64,000 bases of DNA, taken from assembly GCA_950295325.1 (NCBI GenBank), contig OX485808.1, forward strand, positions 15,272,527 through 15,336,526, given 5' to 3'. The stretch's first letter is position 1, and each line of letters begins with the position of its first letter. The notes under the pieces are model-generated. The model was not told the origin of the DNA. It made no database searches and saw only the letters and a program-made list of their open reading frames with translations. Source of the DNA: Polytrichum commune. Lineage: Eukaryota; Streptophyta; Polytrichopsida; Polytrichales; Polytrichaceae. The translations under genes were made by a program, and so were the position numbers. Shown here in pieces: positions 1,174-54,950 of the stretch.

Positions 1174-1432
1174 TGAGTTAGACAACTCCCGTTCGAAGAT
1201 CTTTGTGTTGGAGTTAGACAATTTCAACTGTGAGTTACACACCTCCCTCTTGGACATTTTTGTGTTGGAGTTGGACAACTCCAACTAGAAGATGTGAATT
1301 GGAGTTAGACAACTCCGACATATGGATGTTGTTCATTGGAGCTAGACAATCCTCAATGAATAAATCTAGTTGGAATTAGACAGTTCCAACTAGAAGAATG
1401 GATGATGGGATCAAACAATTCCGATTAGAGGA
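1174..1432. repeat. Imperfect minisatellite built on GGAGTTAGACAACTCC
   Basis: The 16-nt core, itself a small inverted repeat (GGAGTT ... AACTCC), recurs about seven times with variation near 1174, 1210, 1268, 1301, 1338, 1371 and 1410. The spacing is irregular, about 33 to 58 bp. It is non-coding as far as can be seen. Confidence 0.7.
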
Positions 1433-3645
1433 TTGTGAATGAGCCAAGAGATAAGAAAAAAATCACATGGTGAAATGATCCATGTATATAAATAAGGAAA
1501 GTTCAGTATAAATTTAAAAATACTCGAGACTTCTAAAATTATCTCTCAGATAACATGGATAAAGATGGATAAGACTAGGAGTGCCTTTGGGATATAAGAG
1601 AAAGAGCGAGCTTAGGGGAGAAGAAACGATCATCTTGTGTCTCTCCTATAGTCGGGTGGTTTGAGCTCATAGCAATCACAATATTGAGATTAGGTTGTGA
1701 AGCTTTTTGTAATGTGCAAAGTTTGGAAGTTCTCAATATTGATGTTTGTTGTGCATTCACGCTTGTAGTATTATTCTTTAAAGGAAAAATATGACATATT
1801 TAGATATCTAGAGTGAAGCTACGTGATCATAAGTACGAATTGTGATGTTTCACAACAATAAGGTCTCGAACAAAAGTGAAAACATGTCATAGTGTTTTCA
1901 CCATAAAATAGCATCCTCCCCCCCAAAAAACCTATCATAATATTGTAGTTCACAATATTCTCCATCCCATGACCAATTTCCCATCCCCCCCCCGGTAATT
2001 ACGTCCTAGTGAAGTAAGAAATGCAAGTTGTATATACAACATGTTTGCGGTGTTCACGTTTTGAACCTTTGTATTAAGTTCTATGCATTACCGTGAACGT
2101 ATGTATTCTCATGTATAAGAACATGTATTGCATCACAATTCCGTCACACTACATGCAAATGGGAACATGGCGAGTGTAGTTGTTCTCTTACCTCTTGACC
2201 AAAGAAGTGGAATCTAATAATGAGGCATTGATGTTTGCGAGAAGTATCTTGATAGAAGTAGAAAGAATATTTGGTTGCATTTGTGCATCATAGCCCTTTA
2301 GACTCTCACCCTAGGCTACAAGTGGTTCAAAGCCCAACATGTACAATCTAGGTCCTTCCTCCCTTGCCATTAAAGTTGACCTCTCATCAACCACCGACCC
2401 TTTTGCCTTTCCGTCATAGGCCAAATGCAATGCTCAATCAAAGCTCAATGGAGGGACATATGTCATAAGTCGTGGCACCTTGGTCCACTAACTTAGGTTA
2501 CTTTCATGGTGCATCATGACCACCGTTGTTCATATTCTTTATTAAACATGGATTATAATTGCAATAGAGGTACAAAGTGATTTACTTTTTATTTTATTTT
2601 ATGTACGAGGATATATAAAGAAATTGGGTGATGATTGAATCACTTTAGGTTATTTGAATACTTGTACCATAGGTGATAAGTACATTCGACACTTTGGGGC
2701 CAGACCATGGCGACACTGGAATTTTTTTTAGGGGTTTTTCTTTATTAAAAACATCACGTGGCATTCAAATTTTGAATCATTTCGTGTTGAACATGCCAAT
2801 CACCTACTATGTATGTGCATATTAATTATGATTTCATATATTATATGGTTTAAGAATCGAGAAAACCGTCGTGATAAGTAAGTTAACACTTTAATGTTGA
2901 AATGTTGATTTTTGGAGGTGACACATAAGATTTTGTATAGATTTCAAGAAGTAGAGAAGTAACACGTGGATCGATTTAAAATTCTAGATCATCCTTAAAA
3001 GCTTGATCTAAAAATTTGTTGTTGTTCGGAGTTACATAGTGCAATGAAGTCTTACACAAGAGTTCAATTTTACTAACGAAAGTTCAATAAGTTGTTCGGA
3101 CATTACAGAACACGAATGATTTTGCTTGATAAAATGTTACAATCTCATTAAAAGTGTTAAAGCATTTTGTAACTCCAAATCGTAACACACATGCAGTCAT
3201 TTTTGTGGCTCAAATTTGCAACATGTAATCATGTGATTGGTTGGAACATTCATAAAAGAAGAAGATGTGTACATTTAATTCAAACACACACGTGTCCAAT
3301 CACGTGACCTAAACCTATAGTATATAACATATACTAGAGGGTGGGTGGACGCCGAAAGAATCATTGTTCCCCAAGCTACAAAAAACGACTGGCTGTCAAC
3401 GGCAAAATGATAAGTGGACGGTGCAGAAACGAGCTGGGACGTTAATTTATATGCACGGGTGCAGCGAGCGGGGTCATGATGGCATAGGCCCCAAACTAGT
3501 GTTGAAAACATCGTATCTTACATACCACTCAAAACAACTTGAAAGTTTGACGGTGGGGCCTTATTTTGTTGTTTTGTGATTGGCAATGACCAATGATTCG
3601 TCATGCAATGGCCTTGAACCTCAACTCCCCAAGGTAGTAAAAAAG

Positions 3646-18999: not shown

Positions 19000-19563
19000 A
19001 ATTCTCAAAGAATTTCCTTTCAAGATTTCAGAGAACCTAGGCAATACACCAATCGCAACTGGACACATGTATTAATCACCCCCACCTACCTACGTGGCCT
19101 TCCACCGCCGCCACCTGTCAGGTCCTGTTTACCACGTGGCCCCGCAAATTGTCAATCACACGCGTCACTCGGTTTAGGTTTCCTCCCCCACACACTCCTC
19201 CTCCACCCTGTGCGCCGTCCGATTCCCGATCCAACGGTCCACACCCCCTCCAGCTACAGCTGACTGTTCCGGCAGCTCGGATCCTTCGGAGCCCTTACCC
19301 CTCTCCTCTCTTCGCAGCATTCCTTCGCAACACCTTCATCAAGTTTACCAAAATCATCATTCGAACTTTCTCGATCATCAACTCCCTTTCGATTCCTCCT
19401 TCGTGACGGGCTTACCGTAAGAATTCTTGTCTTTCGGTGCGTCGGTGAAGCTGTTTGAAGCAGTTTGAAAAACTCTTAGGGTTTCAGAATCCAAAATAGC
19501 TTCTGTCTTTTCGGAGCTTCAGGACTGAGGGATCATCGTGCTGTGTACGAGGAGGAAATCGAA
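19000..19563 (+). promoter_or_regulatory. Presumed promoter and 5' leader of the Rab gene
   Basis: C/T-rich, CpG-containing DNA from about 19070 to 19410 directly precedes the Rab coding frame, similar in character to the leader of the BRO1 gene. No TATA box can be assigned with confidence. Confidence 0.4.
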
Positions 19564-20199
19564 ATGGCAGGATCAGGTGGAGATTTCGATCATCTCTTCA
19601 AGGTTCTTTTGGTTGGAGACTCAGGGGTTGGGAAGAGTAGTTTGCTTTTACGTTTCACAGCGGACACATTCGACGACCTCTCTCCGACAATTGGAGTGGA
19701 TTTCAAGGTGAAGATGATGACACTACAAGGGAAAAGGCTGAAGCTGACAATCTGGGACACAGCAGGGCAAGAGAGGTTTCGAACCCTAACGAGCTCATAT
19801 TACAGGGGAGCACAGGGGATCATACTCGTGTACGACGTAACGCGAAGAGCGACGTTCACAGACTTATCCGACGTATGGTTAAAAGAAGTAGACCGGTATT
19901 CCACCAACGAGGATTGCATCAAGATGTTGATTGGGAATAAAGTTGATCTGGAGGAGCATGAGCGTGTGGTGACGAAGAAGGAGGGGATTGCTTTTGCACG
20001 CCAACATGGATGCTTGTTCCTGGAAGCCAGTGCTAAGACCAGTATCAATGTGCAACGTTGCTTCGATGAGCTTGTGCAGAAGATTCTGGATACCCCCAGC
20101 TTGACTGCTGACACTGCCCAGTTGAAGAAGAATGTCCTCAGACCTGGCCAGACTCCTGATCATGCTCCTGTGGATAGCGCTGGCGGCTGCGGTTGTTAA
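19564..20199 (+). CDS. Rab GTPase of the RABC (Rab18) class, intronless
   Basis: The 211-aa product has all Ras-fold motifs: P-loop GDSGVGKSS (18-26, Lys24), switch I Thr42 in [15 protein letters not shown] (64-70), NKVD (125-128) and SAK (156-158). The sequences [16 protein letters not shown] and DVTRR, the NxDCIKM segment and the KILDTPSL end match plant RABC/Rab18, a class placed on ER, lipid droplets, peroxisomes or Golgi. The C-terminus GGCGC supplies a Cys-x-Cys for double geranylgeranylation by Rab escort protein and RabGGTase. ATG at 19564 gives the usual MAGSGG-type start; a frame continues seven codons upstream from a GTG but is unlikely to be used. The single exon is odd beside neighbours with 10 and 13 introns; it may be a retrocopy or a lineage-specific intron loss. 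No inactivating change is seen. Confidence 0.96.
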
Positions 20200-32348: not shown

Positions 32349-33580
32349 TTATTGTTCATGATTATTGGCTATTGACTTTAGTGTCTACTCCTTGCAAAAG
32401 GTGAAGTAGTTTTTACACCTAATGTCATTGTTCCTTCTAGGACTAGACACTCTATTCACTCTTGCCTCCTACGGAGACCGCAATTCTTCTTCTTCTTCTT
32501 CTTCTTCTTCTTATGTGATTCACGATTGCTAACTGAATGAGAACACTTCCCATCCAATCCAATGACTAGAATTGTATGTGGAGTTCAAAGCACTTGTCTC
32601 TAGTTATTGTTCGTGATTACTGGCCATTGACGTTAGTGTCTACTCCTTGCAAAAGGTGAAGTAGTTTTTACACCTAATGTTCATTGTTCCTTCTAAGAAT
32701 AGACACTCTATTCACTATGGTCTCCTACAGAAACTGCAATTCTTCTTCTTCTTCTTATGTGATTCACGGTTGCTAACTGCATGAGAAAACTTCCCATCCG
32801 ATCCAATGACTCAAATTGTTCGTGGAGTTCAAAGCACTTGTCTATGGTTACTGTTCGTGATTACTAGCTATTGTTGTGGTGTCTACTCCTTGCAAAAGGT
32901 GAAGTAGTTTTTACACCTAATGTCATTGTTCCTTCTAAGAACAAACACTCTATTCACTCTGGTCTCCTACAGAAACCGCAATTCTTCTTCTTCTTCTTCT
33001 TCTGTGATTCACAGTTGCTAATTGGATGAGAAAACTTCCCATCCGATCCAATGGCTAAAATTGTTCGTGCAGTTGAAAGCACTTGTCTCTGGTTATTGTT
33101 CGTGATTACTGGTTATTAATGTGGTGCCCACTCCTTACAAAAGGTGAAGTAGTTTTTACACCTAATGTCATTGTTCCTTCTAAGAACAGACACTCTATTC
33201 ACTCTAGTCTCCTACAGAAACCGCAATTCTTCTGCTTTTTTCTGTGATTCACGGTTGCTAATTGGATGAGAAAACTTCCCATCCGATCCAATGGCTAAAA
33301 TTGTTCGTGCAGTTGAAAGCACTTGTCTATGGTTATTGTTCGTGATTACTGGTCATTGATGTGGTGCCCACTCCTCACAAAAGGTGAAGTAGTTTTTACA
33401 CTTAATATCATCGTTCCTTCTAGGACTAGACATTCCATTCACTCTGACCTCCGACGGAGACCGCAACTCTTCTTCTTCTTATGTGATTCACGGTTACTAA
33501 CAAGATGAAAAAACTTCCCATCCGATCCAACGGCGAGAATTGTCTGTGGAGTTGAAAGCGCCCACAATAATAATAATAGG
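32349..33580 (+). repeat. Tandem array of about 245-bp units with a CTT microsatellite
   Basis: The phrase GTGAAGTAGTTTTTACACxTA starts at 32401, 32656, 32899, 33144 and 33387, giving five diverged units of about 240-255 bp. Each unit carries a TTC run of variable length, GTGATTCACGxTTGCTAAC, CCCATCCxATCCAATG and a GTxGAGTT end. The last unit ends in GCGCCCACAATAATAATA. Single related segments lie at 14811-14975 and around 59330-59960. Non-coding. Confidence 0.9.
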
Positions 33581-43555: not shown

Positions 43556-46500
43556 ATGAAGTTGGGAGAGGTGCTGCTCTCTGTGTTGCTAGTGGTGTCA
43601 TGGACATGGCCGGCTGGAGGACTGACCGAAGTAGAGTTCCTGGATGACATGGAGGGCAAAGTCAGGCTTCTCGCCCGCCACGCACTCTTCTTGCAGCTTG
43701 CTGCCGAAGCCAATGACTGCGGTAAGCACCACCACTTCTCAATCTCAATCTCCACTTTCTCGGTTCCGCCATCAAAAGTTTCCTCAACTGTAAAGCTTAT
43801 TGTTTCCAAATTTGAAGAAACAGGCGAGGAAGGGCAGCAGAAGAGTTTGCAAGTCCTGCTTGAGCAAGTCTGTCAAGAGTCTGTCTTCAGAGATGATGAT
43901 GATGTTGTTGTTGTGCTCACATCTCATTTATATTGGTAAGCATCACTTCTCAACAGCTTTGACCATTCTCTTATAGCTCAACTTTCTCGGTTCCGGAATC
44001 ACACCTTTTCTCACTGCGAAGTTGTTGCTGCCAAAATTGAAGGAACAGATGAGGACGGGCTGCAGTAAGAGTCCAGTTTTTTTTTTTGCAAAAGATGGCT
44101 ATGGCAAGAGCCTGTTGTGAGAGATGTTGTTGTTGTCGTTGTTGTGTTTTCACAGCTCGAATATGTTTTGTTGTGTGCAAGTGCAGGCCTGTCGAATTGC
44201 GTCGACAAGTGTTCGCGGCACTCGTGCTCCCCAACCACCAAGGACAATTTCACCTGTGTGCAGGCCCCAAGAAGCATCGCAGATTGCTCCGACCTGCTTA
44301 ACAACGGTACATGCTTACACTTGAAAGTCGACTTCACCGGAAACGGATTTGTTCGGTAAGTGCCAAAACCTCTGAGAAGTCAAATTCCTTTCCGAGGATT
44401 CAGGAGAATCAAGCTCTGTCTGTCAATTGATGTGATATCCTTGTTAGGGCACATTCGTGGCCATGTGCGCACATAGCATTCTCAAGCATGTGTAAGGACT
44501 TTCTCTTTCTATTTGTTCTAGCTTCAAGAGTAAATTTCAAAAAATTGAGGCCCTGATTACATGCATGAATGCCAAGCATGGTCAAGTGGCAAGCTCTTAT
44601 TGGTGGAAACCTCATTGTTACCTAATTTTATTTGGACACAGCCTTCTTCCATCTACCAAGCACTCAACTCAAAGACATTCTTGCTAAAAAGGATCTCACC
44701 GTGTATAGGTACTCTCCAAGATGCTTATCCTAGTGAAAAAACACCCACTACACCACTTAAAATTGCTGTGCAGGAAGTTTGATCCTCTCCAAAGTCAATT
44801 TTACTCTAGGAAATTTGGCCTTATGTGGACCAATGATGCATCAAACGCCAAATTCATCAGCATTGCAGCATTGTTTGATGCAATGGTACTGATTCTTGAT
44901 GAGCTTTGGCTGTTTAGGATTCCACCACAGTTTGTGAATTTCTCAAACCTGAGCCCTGAGTTGACACGGTCGATCTGCTCCCAAGCAAATCTGCAGTTTC
45001 CTGCAAGCAGTGAAACTGTCTTCACCGAACTCGCATTCTGGAACTACTTTGGATCCTCGGCGGGAGTTTGGCGCACTTATCCTGGCCGAGTGAGTGAGAA
45101 CATTCTCTATTCATTTGGGTTCCAGAATTACTTTTTTATTAGGGCAAAGGCGCAATGCATTATGCTCATTGCAGCATTTCAACTTGAAAATATGTATCAA
45201 AATTGTATAGGGATTTGTGCATTAATGTGAAGCTCAACATCTAATTTGTGAATGAATATCAGGAGGCTGATCCGTATAGTGGCTGCATTCAGTATGATCC
45301 CCGCAAACGACCCTGGTAATGTAACACTGCCATTTTTTGCATGTAATTTGAGTTGTTGTGAATGTTTAAAATCTGCTCCAAACATCATCATTTATTTCTA
45401 TCTCATAATAGTATCTATCTTAGGTATACGGGCCTCATGTGGTTGTTCTTCTTAATTGTACACTTCTAGTTGAGTGGTATATGGCAAGACTTGTAGTAAA
45501 GAACAGACAAAAAAAAGAAGACATGTGTTACAATGAGATTGGACTATGTGCACAACTCCTAGACACCATTCCAGGTTGAATTGTTAACACAATTGGGTTG
45601 GTCTATGCAATCACTTAAAGAGAAAGAGAGTCCTCATTTTGACCTCCTATAACTTTTGCATCTCAATTCTGATTCTGAAATGTGAAATGACAACCTGTGT
45701 GATTCATTACAATTCCTAAGTCAATCCAATGGTCAAGCAATTTTACGTGGAGTTGGAAGTGCCCACAATAGGGCCACATACCTTAAAACTCGACAAAACC
45801 ACAGGTGCTCTTGGCCATAATGCGAAGCAGTCGAGTGATTTTCAAAGGACTTATGTTAATGAGTACATAGAATCTCTTGCAATTGGTAGTAACGTACGTG
45901 GCCTTATTGTGGACACTTCCAACTCCACAGACAATTGTGGCCGACATTGGATCATTAGCAGTTGTCTCATCCGATTCACAATTGCGATGAATCACAAAGA
46001 TTGTTGTTTCAAGTTTCACATTTGTAGTTGAGTTGCAAAATTTAGTAGTGGTCAAATTGAAGATTTTTCTCATTCTCATTACAAGTGATCACATAGGCCC
46101 TCCCAATGGTATTAATTGTTGAACCTAGAATGGTTTAAACATTCCGAGCACATAGTTCAATCTCATTGTCACACGTGTCTTTCTGGTGTCCATTCTTAAC
46201 AACAAATCTTCCCATATAGCAATCAAATATAGGTATCCAATTAAGAAGAGTGACCAAATAAGGCCCACAAACCTTCTGAAGAGTGTATGGGGAGTTTGAG
46301 GTTCTAGTGTTACCTCTTCTTCGATTGCATTTAATATTGCAGCGTGAATGAACTACACATTTGTGGAAGACTGGTCTTTTGACTGACAAGAGTGTCTTCG
46401 AAATCTAAACTACTTTCAGGTATATAGTAGCAACTTCAGTGGTCAAGGACCTGGTGATCCTACTTGACACAGGGCAAAACAACGAAACAACATTTTTACT

Positions 46501-49500
46501 TGCAAAGAATGTTGCCACTGAACTTCTGGGCACCATGGCGCCTGCGGATCGTGTCAATGTGGTCAAATTCAACTCTTCTGCAGCAACTTCAATGCAAGGC
46601 ACTTCGGTAATCTCGAGCTTGCTAGACCTTGATCTTCTTTTCTGGATTTAGCATGCTATAGTTTATCTTAAAGCCACTTTAAAATTGAGCTCGAGGGATT
46701 GTGACTAATGAACCCTAAAATCTCTAATTGGTGGAAAAGGCTGAGGCCATCATACTTCACTTTTACAATAGAGCTTGAGAGCATAAGGGACCAAGGTAGT
46801 TTGAATGGGCGAACAAAGGTACGCGGAGTCCTTCATGGCATGCAATGGATATTGTAAATGTTTCATGGTCTGCTGGATTTTTTGTCAAGCCCACCTCAAA
46901 GTGGCGGGTCTCGCACAAAACCAGGAGACCATGACACTTCAAATCTCATTACAACCCATGATTTATCATAACTTATTGTGTAGAAGGGCCCACATGAATA
47001 GGATGGTAATGAAATAGTATTCGGTTGAGAGTCCGGTCATGTATGTCTCTAAACTACAATTGAAGGCCCGTCATGACATAGCTACGATTTTAATTTTCCA
47101 TGACGAGTTTCAAGGATACTCACAACTTCATGGTCACGGCCCTTGGCCATAGTGTACAGTGACCCTTATCACATTTGCTATGGCTTCTAAAGACTAGAAA
47201 CACTGGTTGAGGACTCCTCCTTCGGCACCACAATATACCTTATAGGTATACACTGGATGAAGAAATTATAGACATTATTACTAGAAGTGTTAATTGCCTT
47301 CCACGAATTGTTTTTGACATCTTGATTGATTCCTTTGCAGGTTGTTGTTCCACATGATGCAGATTTACCATCCATCTTCAACATCTCCACTGTGATGAAC
47401 ACTGTGGGCAGTTTCTCAAATATAACTCGAGGGCTCACAAAAGCCATCGCAACCTTCAACACGACCAGTCAACTGAAAGTACCTCTCTTCATGCATTCAT
47501 TCACCTTGCTGTAAGACTAGATTGGCCTTCTCAGATTTTCATTTCCATAACAAACTCAATTTCTTAGGGTTCCATTTCCTCTTCACTTTCTCCAACTTAA
47601 ATTGCCTCTCCAGAGATTGTTTATTGACAAGAACACTTTACTAACCATGTACACTACACAATGAAATCCCTAATTGCAAAAATTGAACGACCATGATGTT
47701 TACGAGACCCAAGGCCTTAACCTTCAACATGTGAACTGGATAATTTCAACCAACCATGTGGGAACCCAGGGGCTTGCCATTGGTAGAGATTGGGTGCAGC
47801 CCATTCAAGGTCTTCACTTTTGATAAGAGGAAATAACCTTCGAGGTCCCTCTAATTCTGGCGATGTCCGTTTCAGGATTACATATGGAATCAGACTGACT
47901 TGAACAAGAAATAGAACACCATAATGCATGCTGGTGGCAACATCAGATTCATCTCTCTCTCTTTCTCTAAACTTCTATTCCCGTGTAGTTGGGTTTTGTT
48001 CCATCTCTGTGTTTGTGTATGCATCTGTGGAGGAAAACTTCACAACCTATGTGATGATGATTTTGGATAAAACTTTGCTTCTAACAAAGCCTCTAATTTG
48101 CATCGACAGATGATAGTGGTGTTGACAGATGGTCATTTTGCGATGAATGCCGGATTCAACAATTCAGCACTCGCAAATGTAGTTTCATCTTTGAGGTCAC
48201 AAGGGGTGGTTGTTTTCTTCTTCAGCTTGGGTCCAGGTGATGCTAGTAACCCTCCTGACCCTCTCATGGCGCTCCGAAGCTTGTCGTGCCAAATGAACAG
48301 CTCTGTCACCTATGTTAGTCTCACAGATGCGCAACGGAATCCACTTTGGGCCATTCGTCCATACTTTGACTACCAAGCGGTGTTGCGGTTTAAAGCAAAT
48401 ACCACCTTCTGGACAGACATTTATGAAGACTTCGACGGGTTGGGTCCCATCGCCACCGTCACTTATCCAGGTCAGATATGACTATGTTTGCCAGCACTAG
48501 CATGAATCGCATGAATTATAGAGTCTCTTGCTAGCAGCCTACTGCCTCAGATACGAGGTGGACTATTTCTAACAGCTGTAACTCAGGCAACTTAAGTGCC
48601 CATTGTTCCTCTCCTACTAGGCTCACCAAGCCCCTCATCACACACAACTTTTAAGATGACCAGTTGACCCGGTGACCCCCACAATGATTGGGTTGACCAT
48701 AGTGGGTAACATCTATCCAGGTCACTAATGTGGGACTGGAATTAAAGAGTCCCTTGGCCCATTGTTCCTCCCCTACTAGGCTTACTGAGGCCTTCAGTCA
48801 CCCCTCAGTTCCCACAACATTTGAGATGATCGGTTGATGCAGTGACTCCCACAATGGTTGGGTAACACTAGCATGGCTTAGTGGAGGATAGAACCCACAC
48901 CGCTTGCAAGGTGGATATGAGTTCCAACCACTCAAGCTACTGGCTTGATGCTTAGAGCCTTCATAAGAAGGTCTCAGTGGAATAAACAGCACATTCTTCT
49001 GTGATGAATGCATCCTTATTTCGCAAATGTGATTATCACTTACCAGATGTTGCTAAAGCTTGAATATGATTTTGAAGACAGGATTTGACAATAAACAGCA
49101 GGAAAGTATGTAGCAATCGGGTGATGTGAACACAGAAGCTTGGACTCTTAAATCATGAATGGTAATGTTTCTGAGGGCAGGAACTAACTAGAGTTAAGTG
49201 AGGGAAACCTTTCCAATATTTTTCCTCTAGAAGTGAACAGTCCTTTAAAAATCCATACTGATGGTGATAATTCCTGTCATTTTTTTTGGCAGTTCTCAGT
49301 GATGGGACTCTATATGGAGTAGCTGGCATTGATGTAGTTGTGAATTCTAGTGACATTTCCAATGCTATCAGGAACCGACGTGTCGACGCAAACGTTCCTG
49401 CTGACCCATTGGCCTGTCAGATGCAGCAGGTATCACAAGTCTCTATCTCTAATCTTGTATCAATCTTGTGTAACAATCACCCAAGTTCCTGAACTTCAAA

Positions 49501-52500
49501 CTCCCAGAGTGTGGATAATGCTCGTAGAATCTGGTTCATTAGTAGGAAACTATAGACAGTGCTGCTCTTATTCTTGTATTAAAAAAGTGATCTCATCAAG
49601 CCAATAGCTTGAGTGATTGGGACTTATCTCCATCTTGCAAGTGGTGTGGGTTCTATTCTCCACCAAGCCATGCTAAAGCACCTCCTGTGGTCCCCCAATC
49701 ATTTGTGAGGTTCACTGGGTTAGCCAGCCATCTTAAAGGTTTTACGTATGGAAGAGCTCGGTGACACTAGTAGGGGAGGAACAGTGAGCGATGAAGTTGC
49801 AATGGTTACAGCTGTAAGAAAGAGCCCCCCTCTTTATTGAGACAGTAGCTTGCAAGTGAAGAGACTTTATAATTCAAGCTAGTGTTACCTGCTCCGGTCC
49901 ACCCAATTATTGTGGAGGTCACTAGGGCAATTGGTCATCTCATTAGTTGTGGGTACAGAAGAGCTCAATGAGGCTAGTAGGCAAAATGGGCGATCAAGTT
50001 GCTCTTATTACAACTGTAAGAAAGAGTCCATCTCTTAATTGAGGCAGTAGCATGCGGACGAAGATACTCTATAATTCATGCTAGTGTTGGCAATCATAAA
50101 CGATATTCTCCTTTTTTTGAAAATGTCAACAGTCTTTCGTTAGTGAGCTTGTGTGATCAATCAGGAAGGCTAGAACCAAAAGATTGTTTATCCCTCAATT
50201 TATCATTGAGCATAATTCGAGATGTAGGAAATCCTCATCCATGATGGTTGTGACTGACCCATTTTCCTACAGGTTAACCTCACCAAGTGCACCAAGGAAG
50301 TAGATGCAGACTTGCAAGCACTTTGTCCTCAGAATGTAGAAACCAATGAGAAGCCTCTGGCTGTTTACTTGAAGAACTTGTGTTGCGACACTTGCAATTT
50401 TCAAGAATCTGGGAAAGTGAACCGCCTCGCTATTTATCTGGGATCAATTTCAGGTGCCTTATTAGTCATTGCGCTCGTCTCCATAATTGCAGTCCTAGCC
50501 TACAAAAACAGAGCCATTCGTGCATCGCTTCGAGAAATTCAAGAAGGTAACACAGCAACAACAACAACTTAAATTTGCTTCTGTTTGCACTTCTCCACTG
50601 CTTATTTCTTTGCCTCTACATCTGTCTTGGGGTGCAGCGTTCTGATGAATTTTGAGAGAAAATCAGAAGCAAAGGGATTTACTATGTAAAGTGACATCCG
50701 TTACCATCTGCGCAGATTTTTCAAAAGCATCAATTGCAACTTATCTGTACACATACAGGGAGCTGAAAGTTGCAACACGCAGGTTTCACAAAGACCAGAA
50801 GCTTGGGGAGGGTGGATTTGGAGAAGTTTACAAGGTATGCACGGATTATATTCTCAGTTGGATACTTGTAGGTCATGACCTATAGATGTCTTTTGATTTG
50901 GATCCACATAGTTTGACCAAGTAGTTTGCCTAAAGTGTCGGTCTCAAGGATATCAAGAATGCAATGAAGTATGAAGTATGAAGTACAAACTGACCAGGAT
51001 CAAAGACCTGTGTTGTTTTAATTGACAACCAAGATATTTTCATAAGGTTGTGCTGATTTTTAGGGACTAAGTTATGGATGCGAGGAGCCCTAACACTGGT
51101 TGTAGGAGGCACCCAATCTACTGAGGATGCAGTAGCAGCAAGGTAGGTGGTGGGTGCCTACTACAGCCAATGTCACAGCAACAGAATTCCATCAATGGAT
51201 GTAGTGGTCAGGCCATGGCAAGGTCACCAATTACAGGTGATAATTTGCCTCATATCCAATCTGAAAAAGAGATTCCAGTAGAAACTCATGGCCTGACTCA
51301 TGGCCTGACCACTACAAGACTTCGGAGCGACAGAAGTGTTTTTAGCAGATTGCCTTACTAAGATTTTTTTTCTTCTCAGGGCAAGATGAAAGATGGTTCA
51401 GTGGTGGCTGTAAAGAAGCTGTCGGATCATTCAAAGCAAGGGAAACGAGAGTTTTTAACCGAAGTGATGGTCATAAGCAAGGTGCAGCATCGAAATTTGG
51501 TAAAATTACGGGGGTGTTGCGTCGAGGGGCCTCACCGACTGCTCGTCTATGAGTATTTGGAGAAAAAAAGTCTCCGTCAGACCTTGCTTGGTACACACAA
51601 TTACCTTCACACATGTCACCTTGCAAGTTCGTGCAATTAATCCTGTAGCTATGGTTGCTTGACTTGATGGCCAACATGCTTGCTTCCATTTCATCCATAC
51701 CCTGCCAATATCATTAAGCAGTAGCTTCAAGCTACTCCCTTTTCTATTTATAGACAGGACCTCCCTGCGATTAGGGTGTGTTTTCATTGAAAAACGGAAA
51801 TGGTATATTGATGACACCTTGGTACCACCTCCTTCAAGTAGGTAGTTTGTTTTAGGGGGTTCTTAGCTGAACCTTCAGTTACCCACTTTGTAAAACTATA
51901 ATTACAAGGTGGAAGGGGTGGAATGTCTATTCAGGATTGTGATTCATGGAGAAACAATTGTGCCATAGATTCTTGATGAAGTCAGCATGCCGTTTTGTGC
52001 TTCTGAATGGAATGCATCTTATTGTAGAGATAGAGGAGGTAAGATGAGAAGGTTCAAGCCCAACTGTCCAAACTTCCCAACCATAAGCAGATGGGAACAA
52101 ATGGGAACATGTGGGTTCAGTGCTTCCAAACACAAGTAGCCTGAGAAAATTCATTATAGAACAATGGTCCGAGCTTACAATACATTCTTTCGAGCATCAC
52201 CACATTCTGATAGGTAATTTTATGAGGAAAACATCGAGGTGAGAATTGCACAGGAAGAGAAAATTGCAGGCATCACATGACAACAAGATTTATGTCAGGA
52301 TAAGTGCTCTGACAAACCCATGATGTGCAAAAAAAACTCTTTTCTAAGTAAAATGTTTATTTTGGAAGGACAGGTGGACCAAAGGAAGCCATGGAGATCG
52401 ATTGGCCGACTCGCTTCAACATCGCCATGGGGACTGCTCGAGGACTTGCATACCTTCATGACGAGCTTCAGCCTCGGATTATACATAGAGACATCAAAGC

Positions 52501-54125
52501 TAGCAACATTCTATTAGACAGCAAGCTTGACGCCAAGATTGCAGATTTTGGACTTGCAAAGCTATTTCCCCAGGAGCAGTCCCATTTCACAACAGATGTT
52601 GCAGGCACATTGTGAGTTTCCAGCATCTACCTATTTCACGAATTTCAGTTGGATCATATTTCTTCTTATTCACTAGCTTGTCATATTGGAATCGGTGAGC
52701 CAAGGGAGCCTTCTATAGGCCGATCTGAGGTTCAGGTCCCATGGGTCAGACCCTATTGTAGACCCTAAAATTCTCCCTAAGGTTTTTTGGATTGAAAGAG
52801 GTCCAAAGGAGTTTGACCCATGCTGTCAAAATTAGGATCCAACACAAGATGTTCTAATGAGCTCTTATAGAAAGGTCCTTCAAAGAGGCACCAGCTTAAC
52901 TCTTTGTTTGGTCCCTCTTAGAGAAACTTGGAGGATAAGTCTATTATCTTCAAGTGTCTCTGTAATTTCTTACACGGGAGATGATTGCAAGTTTCATATC
53001 TGAGTGCCCTTGTAATTTTCTCTAAATATGATTCTCTTGTTGCAGAGGATACGTGGCACCGGAATATGTCACTCGAGGTATTCTTACAGAGAAGGCCGAC
53101 GTGTACAGCTATGGTGTTCTCTTAATGGAAATTGTGACTGGCAAGGTCCACATGAGCCGCACACTCACAGGATGTTTATTTTTCCTTGTGGATGAGGTGA
53201 GCCACCCATCACAACCTCTAGATCCACACATAAACACTGAGTTTACATCTATTCTATCACATGAAATAATAAAATGATATTGACGCCTATCAAACACAGG
53301 TTTGCAATTTCAATATTTTTCGTTTTCTATAGTTCATAGCTGCAAAAGGATGAATTGTGAGTTGAATAAGTGGTGAATGAATCCCCGTCTACATGTTGAG
53401 TTAGCACTGCATCATATTGAACAGTCATAATATGTAACGACACTCAAATTGTATAAATCGATGCCTATCAAATATACAGTTGCAATTTTTATCTTTTGGC
53501 TCAATATTTTTTAGTTGCAAGATTTTAAAGGACGACTATGAGTTGAAAAACTGTGGAATGAATCCTTGTTTAAATGTTGAAGTGGCACTTAAGATTTTAA
53601 ACCTTGAAGGGTTATGCAACGATACAGACTCAACATTAAAAGCTTGCCACTTGCAATTTGAGTTCTAAAATCCAAAGCAACAAAGCTCCTTTTTAATAGC
53701 CTTGTGATCCTTGAAGATTAGTAGTCGCAAATTATGATTACCAATCTTCTGTGCAGGTGAGGCGGTTGTACAAAGAATCTCAAATCTCGAATGACGAAAC
53801 CATCTTACTTGGCGCTGTGGATTCAAGGATCGAGAACACCCTCAACAAAGCAGAGGCACTGAGGGTTTTCAAACTCGCACTTTTGTGCACAACAGACTCG
53901 CCAAATTCCCGGCCAACCATGTCGGAGGCAATTTTGATGCTTCTAGGAACCCAAGAGATTCCGGAGGATCTGTTGAAACACCTTCTAATGTTGGAGTACA
54001 CTACCCACCAAAGCGATGCACACACAGGACCTTTCGGTTCCAATCTAGAGCCTTGGTCGGAGGATGATCTTACTCCTCCTCTTCTCAGTGAACGCAATTC
54101 TCAGACAGTGATAAAATCGTGTTAA
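43556..54125 (+). CDS. Receptor-like kinase with an alpha2-delta-like VWA/Cache ectodomain (14 exons)
   Basis: Exons: 43556-43721, 44187-44355, 44774-45089, 45263-45315, 46420-46606, 47341-47478, 48110-48470, 49293-49429, 50273-50546, 50716-50834, 51380-51590, 52374-52611, 53046-53196, 53757-54125. All introns are GT-AG and 2889 nt stay in frame (962 aa plus stop). Order: signal peptide 1-22; Cys-rich stretch 55-105; VWA_N/first Cache half 112-241 with [13 protein letters not shown] and YDPRKRPWY (228-236); VWA 245-400 with degenerate MIDAS (Asp251-T-G-Q-Asn255, Ser323, Asp350 in LTDG); second Cache half about 415-495 with GVAGIDVVV (Asp477); Cys-rich linker; membrane helix 563-585; kinase 615-865 with GEGGFG, Lys652, HRD Asp750, DFG Asp768 and APE Glu796. 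The kinase is an active RD type closest to LRR-VIII-2/DLSV kinases. The ectodomain order is that of animal alpha2-delta calcium-channel subunits. Ligand and partners are unknown; plasma membrane location is inferred. Confidence 0.92.
43722..44186 (+). repeat. Internal duplication in receptor-kinase intron 1
   Basis: The donor GGTAAGCA-C-AC-ACTTCTCAA and the following ACTTTCTCGGTTCCG-ATCA, TTGAAG-AACAG and the GAGATG-TGTTGTTGT end occur twice, offset by about 216 bp (donor-like sites at 43722 and 43938). The second donor-like site could define a cryptic exon. Confidence 0.65.
45477..45781 (+). mobile_element. Dispersed repeat family B, copy with both ends, in receptor-kinase intron 4
   Basis: The left end GGTATATGGCAA and the right end GGGCCACATACC are short inverted ends, so this 305-bp copy shows the family is a MITE. 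Its right part (GTxGAGTTGGAAGTGCCCACAATAGGG) is the same as the family D tail seen at 14811-14975 and 33520-33590, which links families B and D. Confidence 0.65.
46090..46290 (-). repeat. Dispersed repeat family B copy, inverted, in intron 4
   Basis: On the minus strand it carries TAAGAATGGACACCAGAAAGACACGTGTGAC-like sequence and CTAGGTTCAACAATTAATAC. It lies some 300 bp from the opposite-orientation copy in the same intron. Confidence 0.6.
46975..47175 (+). repeat. Dispersed intronic repeat shared with the BRO1 gene
   Basis: Contains AATAGGATGGTAATGAAATA, AATTTTCCATGACGAGTT and CACGGCCCTTGGCCATAGTG, as at 10165-10375. Lies in intron 5. Confidence 0.7.
48590..48970 (-). repeat. Inverted partner repeat in receptor-kinase intron 7
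   Basis: Two neighbouring diverged copies (sharing CCCATTGTTCCTC-CCTACTAGGCT-AC) are followed by GATAGAACCCACACCGCTTGCAAGGTGGATA. The latter is the inverse of TATCTCCATCTTGCAAGTGGTGTGGGTTCTATT in intron 8. Confidence 0.75.
49600..50060 (+). repeat. Repeat in intron 8, inverse to that in intron 7
   Basis: Two tandem copies share GTAAGAAAGAGTCC/CCCC, CTTTATTGAG-CAGTAGC, ATAATTCA-GCTAGTGTT, GAAGAGCTC and the -GCTAGTAGG- block. The first part pairs with the intron 7 copy across exon 8. Confidence 0.75.
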
Positions 54126-54229
54126 ATAGCCCAATTTGAGAATGTTTTTAGATTTGTAGGGAGAGAACTCACACACTTGAAAGACATCACTCATGTTTAT
54201 GGTTAGTACATGTACATTATAGTAGATGA

Positions 54230-54950
54230 TTGTGCAAGAAATTTTGATGCTTCTAGGAACCGAAGAGATTTTAGAGGATTTATTCAAACACCTTCTCATG
54301 CTGGAGTACACTACATACCAAACGAATACACAACTTGAACCTTTTGGTTCTAATCTAGAGTGGTTGGATGATGACCTTATCCCACCTCTCAGTGAATCCA
54401 ACTTTATACATTGACGAATAGTGGTTAAATAGCCCAATCGGAAAGTGCTTCTTAGATCTGTAGGGAGGGAAGTTGCACACTTGAAAGGCATCACTCATGC
54501 TTATGGTTAGTAGATGCACATTATTGTTGATAGTTGTGCATGCAATATTGATGCTTCTAGGAACCCAAAAGATCTCTTGGAATACCTCATCTGACCCACC
54601 AAACCATTTCACAAGCTGGAGCTTTTGATTCCAATCTAAAATGGTTGAGGGATGACCTTACCCCTCCTTTTCTTAGTGAACACAATTCTCCAACAATGAT
54701 GAAGTTGTGTTAAATAGCTGAATTGGAGAAAGTTTAGATCTATAATGAGAACTCACACACTTGACAAACATCACCATGTTTATGGTTAGTTGATGCAAGC
54801 AAAGTTATAGTAGATGTGTGCGCAAACAATCTTGATGATGCTTGGAGAATCCCCAAGAGATTCCAAAGGACCCACCAAATCAATGCACAAGTTGGAGCTT
54901 TTGGCTCCTGTTGACAGTAAAACTAATTTGCTTTGCCAAGACCTTAGGGT
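54230..54950 (+). pseudogene. Three tandem relics of the receptor kinase's last exon
   Basis: Copies begin near 54230, 54534 and 54818. Each carries the equivalent of the kinase tail coding ILMLLGT-EI (ATTTTGATGCTTCTAGGAAC-CCAAGAGAT) followed by the CCAATCTA-A-TGGT, GATGACCTTA-CCC-CCT, AGTGAA and AAATAGC-AATTGGAGAA stretches and a 3' UTR-like tail (GAACTCACACACTTGA, CATCAC-CATGTTTATGGTTAG). Unit length is about 300 bp, matching 53930-54225 in the gene. Frames are broken; the third copy is truncated. Confidence 0.85.

Follow-up and report, generated by a model that had tools for sequence, protein, structure and literature searches.

The question raised by this locus is whether a plant receptor kinase can carry the sensor module of alpha2delta, the animal calcium-channel protein, and what such a receptor would sense. 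The gene in question occupies positions 43556-54125 of a 64,000-nucleotide stretch of the Polytrichum commune genome (GenBank assembly GCA_950295325.1, contig OX485808.1, positions 15,272,527 to 15,336,526 of the forward strand), and this whole stretch is called the window. The original prediction, made from the letters of the window, described a Ser/Thr receptor kinase whose ectodomain has a VWA domain inserted in a dCache domain, as in the CACNA2D (alpha2delta) and CACHD1 proteins. This alpha2delta-like interpretation of the ectodomain is supported by the present analysis. With a confidence a little better than even, the protein is read as a receptor kinase of the plasma membrane whose likeliest ligands are apoplastic free amino acids or small compounds of the amine-carboxylate kind.

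Homology of the ectodomain to alpha2delta

The ectodomain of the uncorrected window protein (the form preceding the revision of exon 3 described below), used as a single query against the PDB, matched CACNA2D1 collinearly with an E value of about 3e-11. In the same search the CACHD1 match was weak (E 9e-5, residues 200-288 of the uncorrected ectodomain). A profile named A1 was made from the alignment of seven family ectodomains. It matched alpha2delta-1 with an E value of 1.8e-27 in one stretch, which runs from before the cache motif via the VWA to the second cache half, and none of its 14 matches at or below E 0.01 was CACHD1. For the VWA by itself (A2), alpha2delta-1 was again the best solved relative (2.2e-8), and the next molecule was a VWA of the calcium-activated chloride channel family at 1.5e-3.

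The Pfam search of the uncorrected protein gave VWA (E 5e-10) and Pkinase (E 2e-50). At E 0.1, VWA was found in six of the seven aligned members and the chemoreceptor sensor PF22673 in five, with a best value of 1.4e-5. Most of the parts originally claimed were recovered: the VWA, both cache halves (by profile), the membrane helix and a complete kinase with its catalytic motifs. The proposed agreement with the CACNA2D order holds residue by residue as well as in domain order. VWA_N and VGCC_alpha2 had also been expected. The former was not detected in the window protein and appeared weakly in three of the seven members (best E 0.016); the latter (PF08473) had no match in the window protein at E up to 1. 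Searches of the genome with PF08473 and PF08399 returned no match, but their positive controls were equally silent, and an NCBIfam search of the L002 ectodomain returned none. The claimed signal peptide is plausible by eye, the N-terminus being hydrophobic, but residues 1-22 stay below the hydropathy threshold used. Hydropathy indicated a single membrane helix between ectodomain and kinase, which begins about 85 residues past the end of the first dCache. The ectodomain is therefore supported as a homologue of the N-terminal VWA-in-dCache module of alpha2delta, including the first dCache only. A plain VWA protein was rejected because both cache halves are recognised by profile. Independent insertion of the VWA is less likely, since the insertion point is the same as in alpha2delta and the VWA alone also matches alpha2delta best.

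Bacterial relatives were used to examine the insertion. When bacterial and archaeal genomes were scanned with A1, a profile built from spliced-aligner gene models, at least 30 loci were found. Among the 30 matches listed, 13 had both cache halves in one reading frame at i-E 0.05 or better, 20 at i-E 0.5 and 24 at i-E 6. The gap between the halves ranged from -5 to 26 residues in these matches and never exceeded 100, whereas about 200 positions, the VWA, separate them in the moss profile. Ten bacterial proteins were scanned with Pfam; dCache_1 was found in nine and PF22673 in all ten, while a VWA match was found in none. Their outputs are MCPsignal (four), SpoIIE (two) and Ser/Thr protein kinase (four: L037, L029, L018 and L030). 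They resemble the moss protein in their cache halves and motif, and the motif YDPRKRPWY of the window protein is found identically in a Clostridium protein (L011). Because the bacterial halves adjoin without a VWA, this comparison makes the moss ectodomain look like a dCache of prokaryotic type into which a VWA was inserted at the alpha2delta position. A bacterial VWA-in-dCache protein may exist elsewhere, beyond the matches listed.

A gene family with two kinase lineages

The search with the window ectodomain gave eight family loci in the genome, the window gene included. When the L003 and L007 ectodomains served as queries, each recovered seven of the same eight, missing the broken locus L006, and added none. 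L001-L005 and L007 were modelled with an in-house spliced aligner, and the outer ends and some tiny exons of these models are unreliable; the N-termini of L004 and L007 lie outside the fetched stretches and the alignment. The layout of ectodomain plus kinase was found at six of the eight loci, among them L005, which has an in-frame stop. The window gene and L001 have an intron-rich kinase of RD type (A), and L002-L005 have a non-RD kinase (B), in which HGD replaces HRD and which is mostly encoded by a single exon (by two in L004). Non-RD kinases are common among plant immune receptors. Intron positions also connect the members. A phase-2 intron at RP|WY is common to all seven modelled ectodomains; a phase-0 intron before the TDG strand is found in the window gene, L001, L003, L004 and L007 but not in L002 and L005; and a phase-1 intron at TYP| is common to the window gene, L001 and L007. 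Contamination was rejected, as the contig that holds the window is 44.7 Mb long and the paralogues map to C2, C3, C4, C5, C6 and C7. The contigs C1-C7 add up to about 406 Mb of the 408 Mb genome, which suggests a moss with n = 7 and would fit Polytrichaceae.

The joined model was read from genomic sequence alone and its kinase begins in a new exon, so the model might wrongly merge a gene for a CACHD1-like membrane protein with a neighbouring one for a receptor-like cytoplasmic kinase. The paralogue L007, apparently a kinase-less membrane protein, fits such a merger. However, the two parts follow each other in the same order and on the same strand at six loci with two kinase types, and L001 has near-identical exon lengths and identical junction phases compared with the window gene. 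Moreover, reading upstream in the frame of exon 10 leads to a stop at 50646; neither this interval nor exon 10 contains an in-frame ATG, which leaves the kinase half there without its own start codon. A wrong merger is thus highly improbable. On the grounds of the six loci and the shared exon structure of L001, a prediction artefact or chimera was rejected as well.

The window kinase belongs to the RLK/Pelle (receptor-like kinase, RLK) type. Its catalytic motifs are intact, and its best solved matches are BAK1 and BRI1, with IRAK4 lower in the list. The window gene and L001 are 62% identical, and the NG86 ratio of non-synonymous to synonymous substitution (dN/dS) is about 0.15 for the ectodomain and about 0.12 for the kinase. 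The underlying dN and dS are 0.295/1.81 overall, 0.292/1.97 for the ectodomain and 0.210/1.77 for the kinase, the dS of 1.8-2.0 being near saturation. By this measure, both halves are under purifying selection.

A tree was calculated with 29 kinases, namely two A, four B and 23 other RLKs of the same genome. For these 23, the best matches to the A and B kinases were taken together with five loci chosen by exon-wise matches (L065-L069), of which L065 and L068 are only partly covered. L058, L060, L062 and L063 repeat L042, L045, L040 and L043 and were left out; the loci L051-L054 correspond to the B members of the family itself. Each of the groups A and B has a support of 100/99, but they stand apart, and forcing them into one clade costs 40.8 log units (approximately unbiased test, p = 0.00038). 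Since the two are not one clade, the tree indicates that one sensor module is joined to at least two unrelated kinase lineages. A groups weakly with L065-L067 (support 83/69). The A kinases are 48-53% identical to those of L065-L067 and 49-51% to that of L039, against 34-39% to B. The kinase exon lengths 211/238/151 are exactly common to the window gene, L066 and L067; L065 has 211/238, after which its match is cut off. L065 carries a SPARK-domain ectodomain (positions 1287-2186, reverse strand, E 1.3e-27) upstream of a kinase close to that of the window gene, and L066 and L067 contain segments that look by eye like leucine-rich repeats (LRR). The A kinase may be CRPK1/LRR-VIII-2-like and the B kinase CR4-like.

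The locus L007 (1301-7611; C6:22623300-22629610) encodes a VWA-cache ectodomain, a membrane helix and a short tail. A kinase profile run over six frames of the 18 kb of L007 and L008 gave nothing better than E 1.2; the same profile found the kinase of L003 at 2.5e-107 and five exons of L001 at 1.8e-35 to 1.7e-9. L007 may resemble a kinase-less ancestor, or it may have lost its kinase.

The candidate amino-acid site

The accessible part of PMC9901441 describes an amino-acid motif of alpha2delta in which an arginine and an aspartate are essential to ligand binding, and gives Arg241 and Asp491 as important for the effect of gabapentin. The start of the motif is printed there as YxxxRxWY; in alpha2delta-1 and in the window protein, four residues lie between the tyrosine and the arginine (Y/F-x4-RxWY). 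In the alignment, Y236, R241, W243, Y244, Y450 and D491 of alpha2delta-1 correspond to Y180, R185, W187, Y188, Y400 and D429 of the window protein. The window protein thus has all six motif positions, as do six of the seven aligned ectodomains if Y or F is allowed at the first. R185, W187 and Y188 are invariant in all seven, and the first aromatic residue is tyrosine in three and phenylalanine in four. The tyrosine and aspartate of the second half are kept in six, the exception being L005 with phenylalanine and glutamine.

We propose that R185 and D429, together with Y180, W187 and Y400, would hold a ligand bearing both an alpha-amino and a carboxyl group. The cache would then close and, perhaps together with a partner on the VWA, bring receptors together, and the gathered kinases would transphosphorylate and signal. 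The VWA would serve as a partner-binding surface in this scheme. The size of the ligand may be limited by another position. The accessible part of PMC9901441 states that the site of Ala217 (rabbit structure) is phenylalanine in alpha2delta-3 and -4, where it hinders bulky ligands. Its equivalent is tryptophan (residue 163) in the window protein, tryptophan in L001, histidine in L003 and L004, glutamate in L002 and glutamine in L005; L007 is outside coverage. Because Trp163 stands at this hindering site, small amino acids of the glycine, alanine or serine type would be the likeliest ligands of the window protein. The B-type paralogues with histidine or glutamate there would prefer other ligands.

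The metal-ion-dependent adhesion site (MIDAS) of the VWA is degenerate, with DTGQN in the window protein and DTGQR in L001 versus DxSxS in alpha2delta-1 and -2. L002-L005, the four B members, and L007 have DxGxS. The ectodomain could instead be mainly protein- or wall-binding: the VWA would bind a partner, the cache would be a structural relic and an amino acid would act as a folding co-factor. The VWA is a known protein-interaction domain, and tryptophan or phenylalanine added alone had no effect on alpha2delta-1 in the assay of the same paper (PMC9901441, accessible part). The accessible part of PMC6231325 describes CACHD1 as functional despite its disrupted MIDAS. The 14 N-glycosylation sequons of the ectodomain and its cysteine-rich stalk would also suit a large extracellular complex. 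Nevertheless, the MIDAS is degenerate here while the amino-acid motif is kept in six of the seven aligned members, which points to the cache as the conserved site. We consider this protein- or wall-binding function rather unlikely.

The homology to alpha2delta and CACHD1 could further mean that the protein regulates a calcium-permeable channel in the alpha2delta style, with the kinase as an added output. However, the window protein has lost the MIDAS that contacts voltage-gated calcium (CaV) channels, and, as noted above, it shows no VGCC_alpha2 region. To our knowledge, land plants do not possess animal-type CaV channels, which also counts against channel regulation. This role is judged improbable.

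Several points weigh against amino-acid sensing, the favoured function. It is a prediction from sequence. The site is not kept in every copy, as L005 has lost the tyrosine and the aspartate of the motif and contains the in-frame stop. Pfam dCache_1 (PF02743) had no match at E 0.1 in the window protein or in any of the seven aligned ectodomains, and the cache assignment therefore rests on PF22673 in five of the seven and on the profile alignments. The loss of the MIDAS in the window protein belongs here too. Finally, alpha2delta-3 and -4 illustrate that the motif by itself is no guarantee of bulky-ligand binding (PMC9901441, accessible part).

Known systems, gene model and further features

The moss protein shares with alpha2delta the VWA inserted in the first dCache_1 at the same point, the motif residues and a collinear profile match. 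It differs in having the first dCache only, a degenerate MIDAS and no delta part, and in possessing a transmembrane helix and an intracellular kinase where alpha2delta has a lipid-anchored tail. The VWA-cache ectodomain, the disrupted MIDAS and the transmembrane nature are likenesses to CACHD1, which L007 resembles in topology. CACHD1 differs by its additional cache domains, and it has no kinase. It is described as a transmembrane VWA-cache protein with a disrupted MIDAS in the accessible parts of PMC6231325 and PMC9901441. The plant LRR- and SPARK-RLKs have a similar kinase, but their ectodomains are unrelated to the VWA-cache module.

The receptor had been suggested to represent an unreported class. 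In a 2016 survey (PMC4822843), the accessible part limits plant and fungal Cache domains to histidine kinases and metazoan ones mostly to alpha2delta. The accessible part of PMC3019232 mentions von Willebrand once, with alpha kinases, and the main text of the RLK review PMC10868138 contains no occurrence of VWA, von Willebrand or Cache. A VWA-dCache receptor kinase was not found in the titles and abstract beginnings listed, a provisional result as subscription papers and preprints are outside this scope, and no paper combining dCache with a receptor-like kinase was found. Novelty of the pairing of dCache and Ser/Thr kinase itself was rejected, because four of the ten scanned bacterial relatives have it. 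In these four, whose dCache_1 carries the same amino-acid-type motif region, the kinase lies at the N-terminus and the cache at the C-terminus, opposite to the moss order. As the order is reversed and the moss kinase is a plant RLK/Pelle kinase, the pairing looks convergent. What stands of the class claim is the plant architecture, which suggests a kind of plant amino-acid receptor for which no description was found so far.

Such a receptor kinase with an alpha2delta sensor would change the picture of Cache domain distribution and would be a concrete candidate for a plant receptor kinase that perceives apoplastic amino acids directly. It would also offer a channel-free setting for asking why the alpha2delta amino-acid pocket, the gabapentin site, evolved, and the double fusion indicates that the sensor module was reused across unrelated kinases. 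We tentatively propose, at slightly less than even confidence, that the moss amino-acid receptor kinases arose by at least two independent joinings of the alpha2delta module, that this module pre-dates the plant-animal split or was transferred, and that alpha2delta came from a general eukaryotic sensor. If so, an origin before the split would imply loss of VWA-in-dCache in most plants, with transfer between eukaryotic lineages as the alternative, and alpha2delta would not have been invented for animal channels but inherited from an amino-acid sensor of eukaryotes in general.

The 14-exon model originally given keeps its frame in the genomic sequence, and all of its introns are GT-AG. A spliced aligner written for this analysis returned the same model, but the query was the model itself, which validates the aligner only. 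One boundary was revised. The earlier exon 3 (44774-45089) adds 48 surplus in-frame residues, and the paralogues use a later acceptor. L001-L005 share a phase-2 junction equivalent to the acceptor at window 44916-44917, with the letters FV|RIPP in the window gene and YV|RVPT, FV|RLPT, YV|RLSS and SI|RLIQ in paralogues. This shared junction makes 44918-45089 the most likely extent of exon 3 and gives a protein of 914 residues. The alpha2delta sequence around the junction, which we take to be VHIPT, points to the same boundary. The longer exon 3 form could be a splice variant.

Table. Exons of the receptor kinase gene in the window (residue numbers refer to the corrected protein)
Feature	Position	Strand	Content
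Exon 1	43556..43721	+	Start codon, hydrophobic N-terminus (probable signal peptide, judged by eye), N-terminal segment
Exon 2	44187..44355	+	Cysteine-rich segment, ending FV|R
144 bases originally counted as exon	44774..44917	+	Most likely 3' end of intron 2; without counterpart in paralogues
Exon 3 (corrected)	44918..45089	+	dCache domain, first half
Exon 4	45263..45315	+	Most of the YDPRKRPWY motif with Y180 and R185; W187 codon split by the intron, Y188 after it
Exon 5	46420..46606	+	Start of inserted VWA domain; degenerate MIDAS DTGQN at residue 203
Exon 6	47341..47478	+	VWA domain, continuation
Exon 7	48110..48470	+	VWA end (TDGH), then start of second cache half with Y400 (alpha2delta-1 Y450)
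Exon 8	49293..49429	+	Second cache half, GVAGIDVVV with D429 (alpha2delta-1 D491)
Exon 9	50273..50546	+	Cysteine-rich stalk, membrane helix (residues 519-537), juxtamembrane segment
Exon 10	50716..50834	+	Juxtamembrane segment and kinase glycine loop GEGGFG
Exon 11	51380..51590	+	Kinase N-lobe, VAVK lysine
Exon 12	52374..52611	+	Kinase HRDIK and DFG
Exon 13	53046..53196	+	Kinase APEY, then helix
Exon 14	53757..54125	+	Kinase end, C-terminal tail, stop codon

Beyond the stop codon, the 3' portion of exon 14 recurs (53930-54573, period 304, 2.1 copies): a nearly complete but decayed copy starts at about 54235, and another fragment starts at about 54545. Elsewhere in the window, a Rab-like small GTPase frame is open in one exon at 19480-20199 (Ras family, E 5.8e-58), and a tandem array of 4.4 copies of a unit of about 245 bases lies at 32349-33559. 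An Rfam search of the window gave no match at gathering scores. Outside the window, three LEAFY DNA-binding exons (L072, L073 and L074) were observed, two with MRDYVHCY/AWCQACY (D-type) and one with MRHYVHCY/AWRQACY (H-type). The D form is reportedly the moss type, as Sayou et al. are said to have described in 2014. The occurrence of H-type and D-type LEAFY in one genome may bear on the change of binding specificity in mosses.

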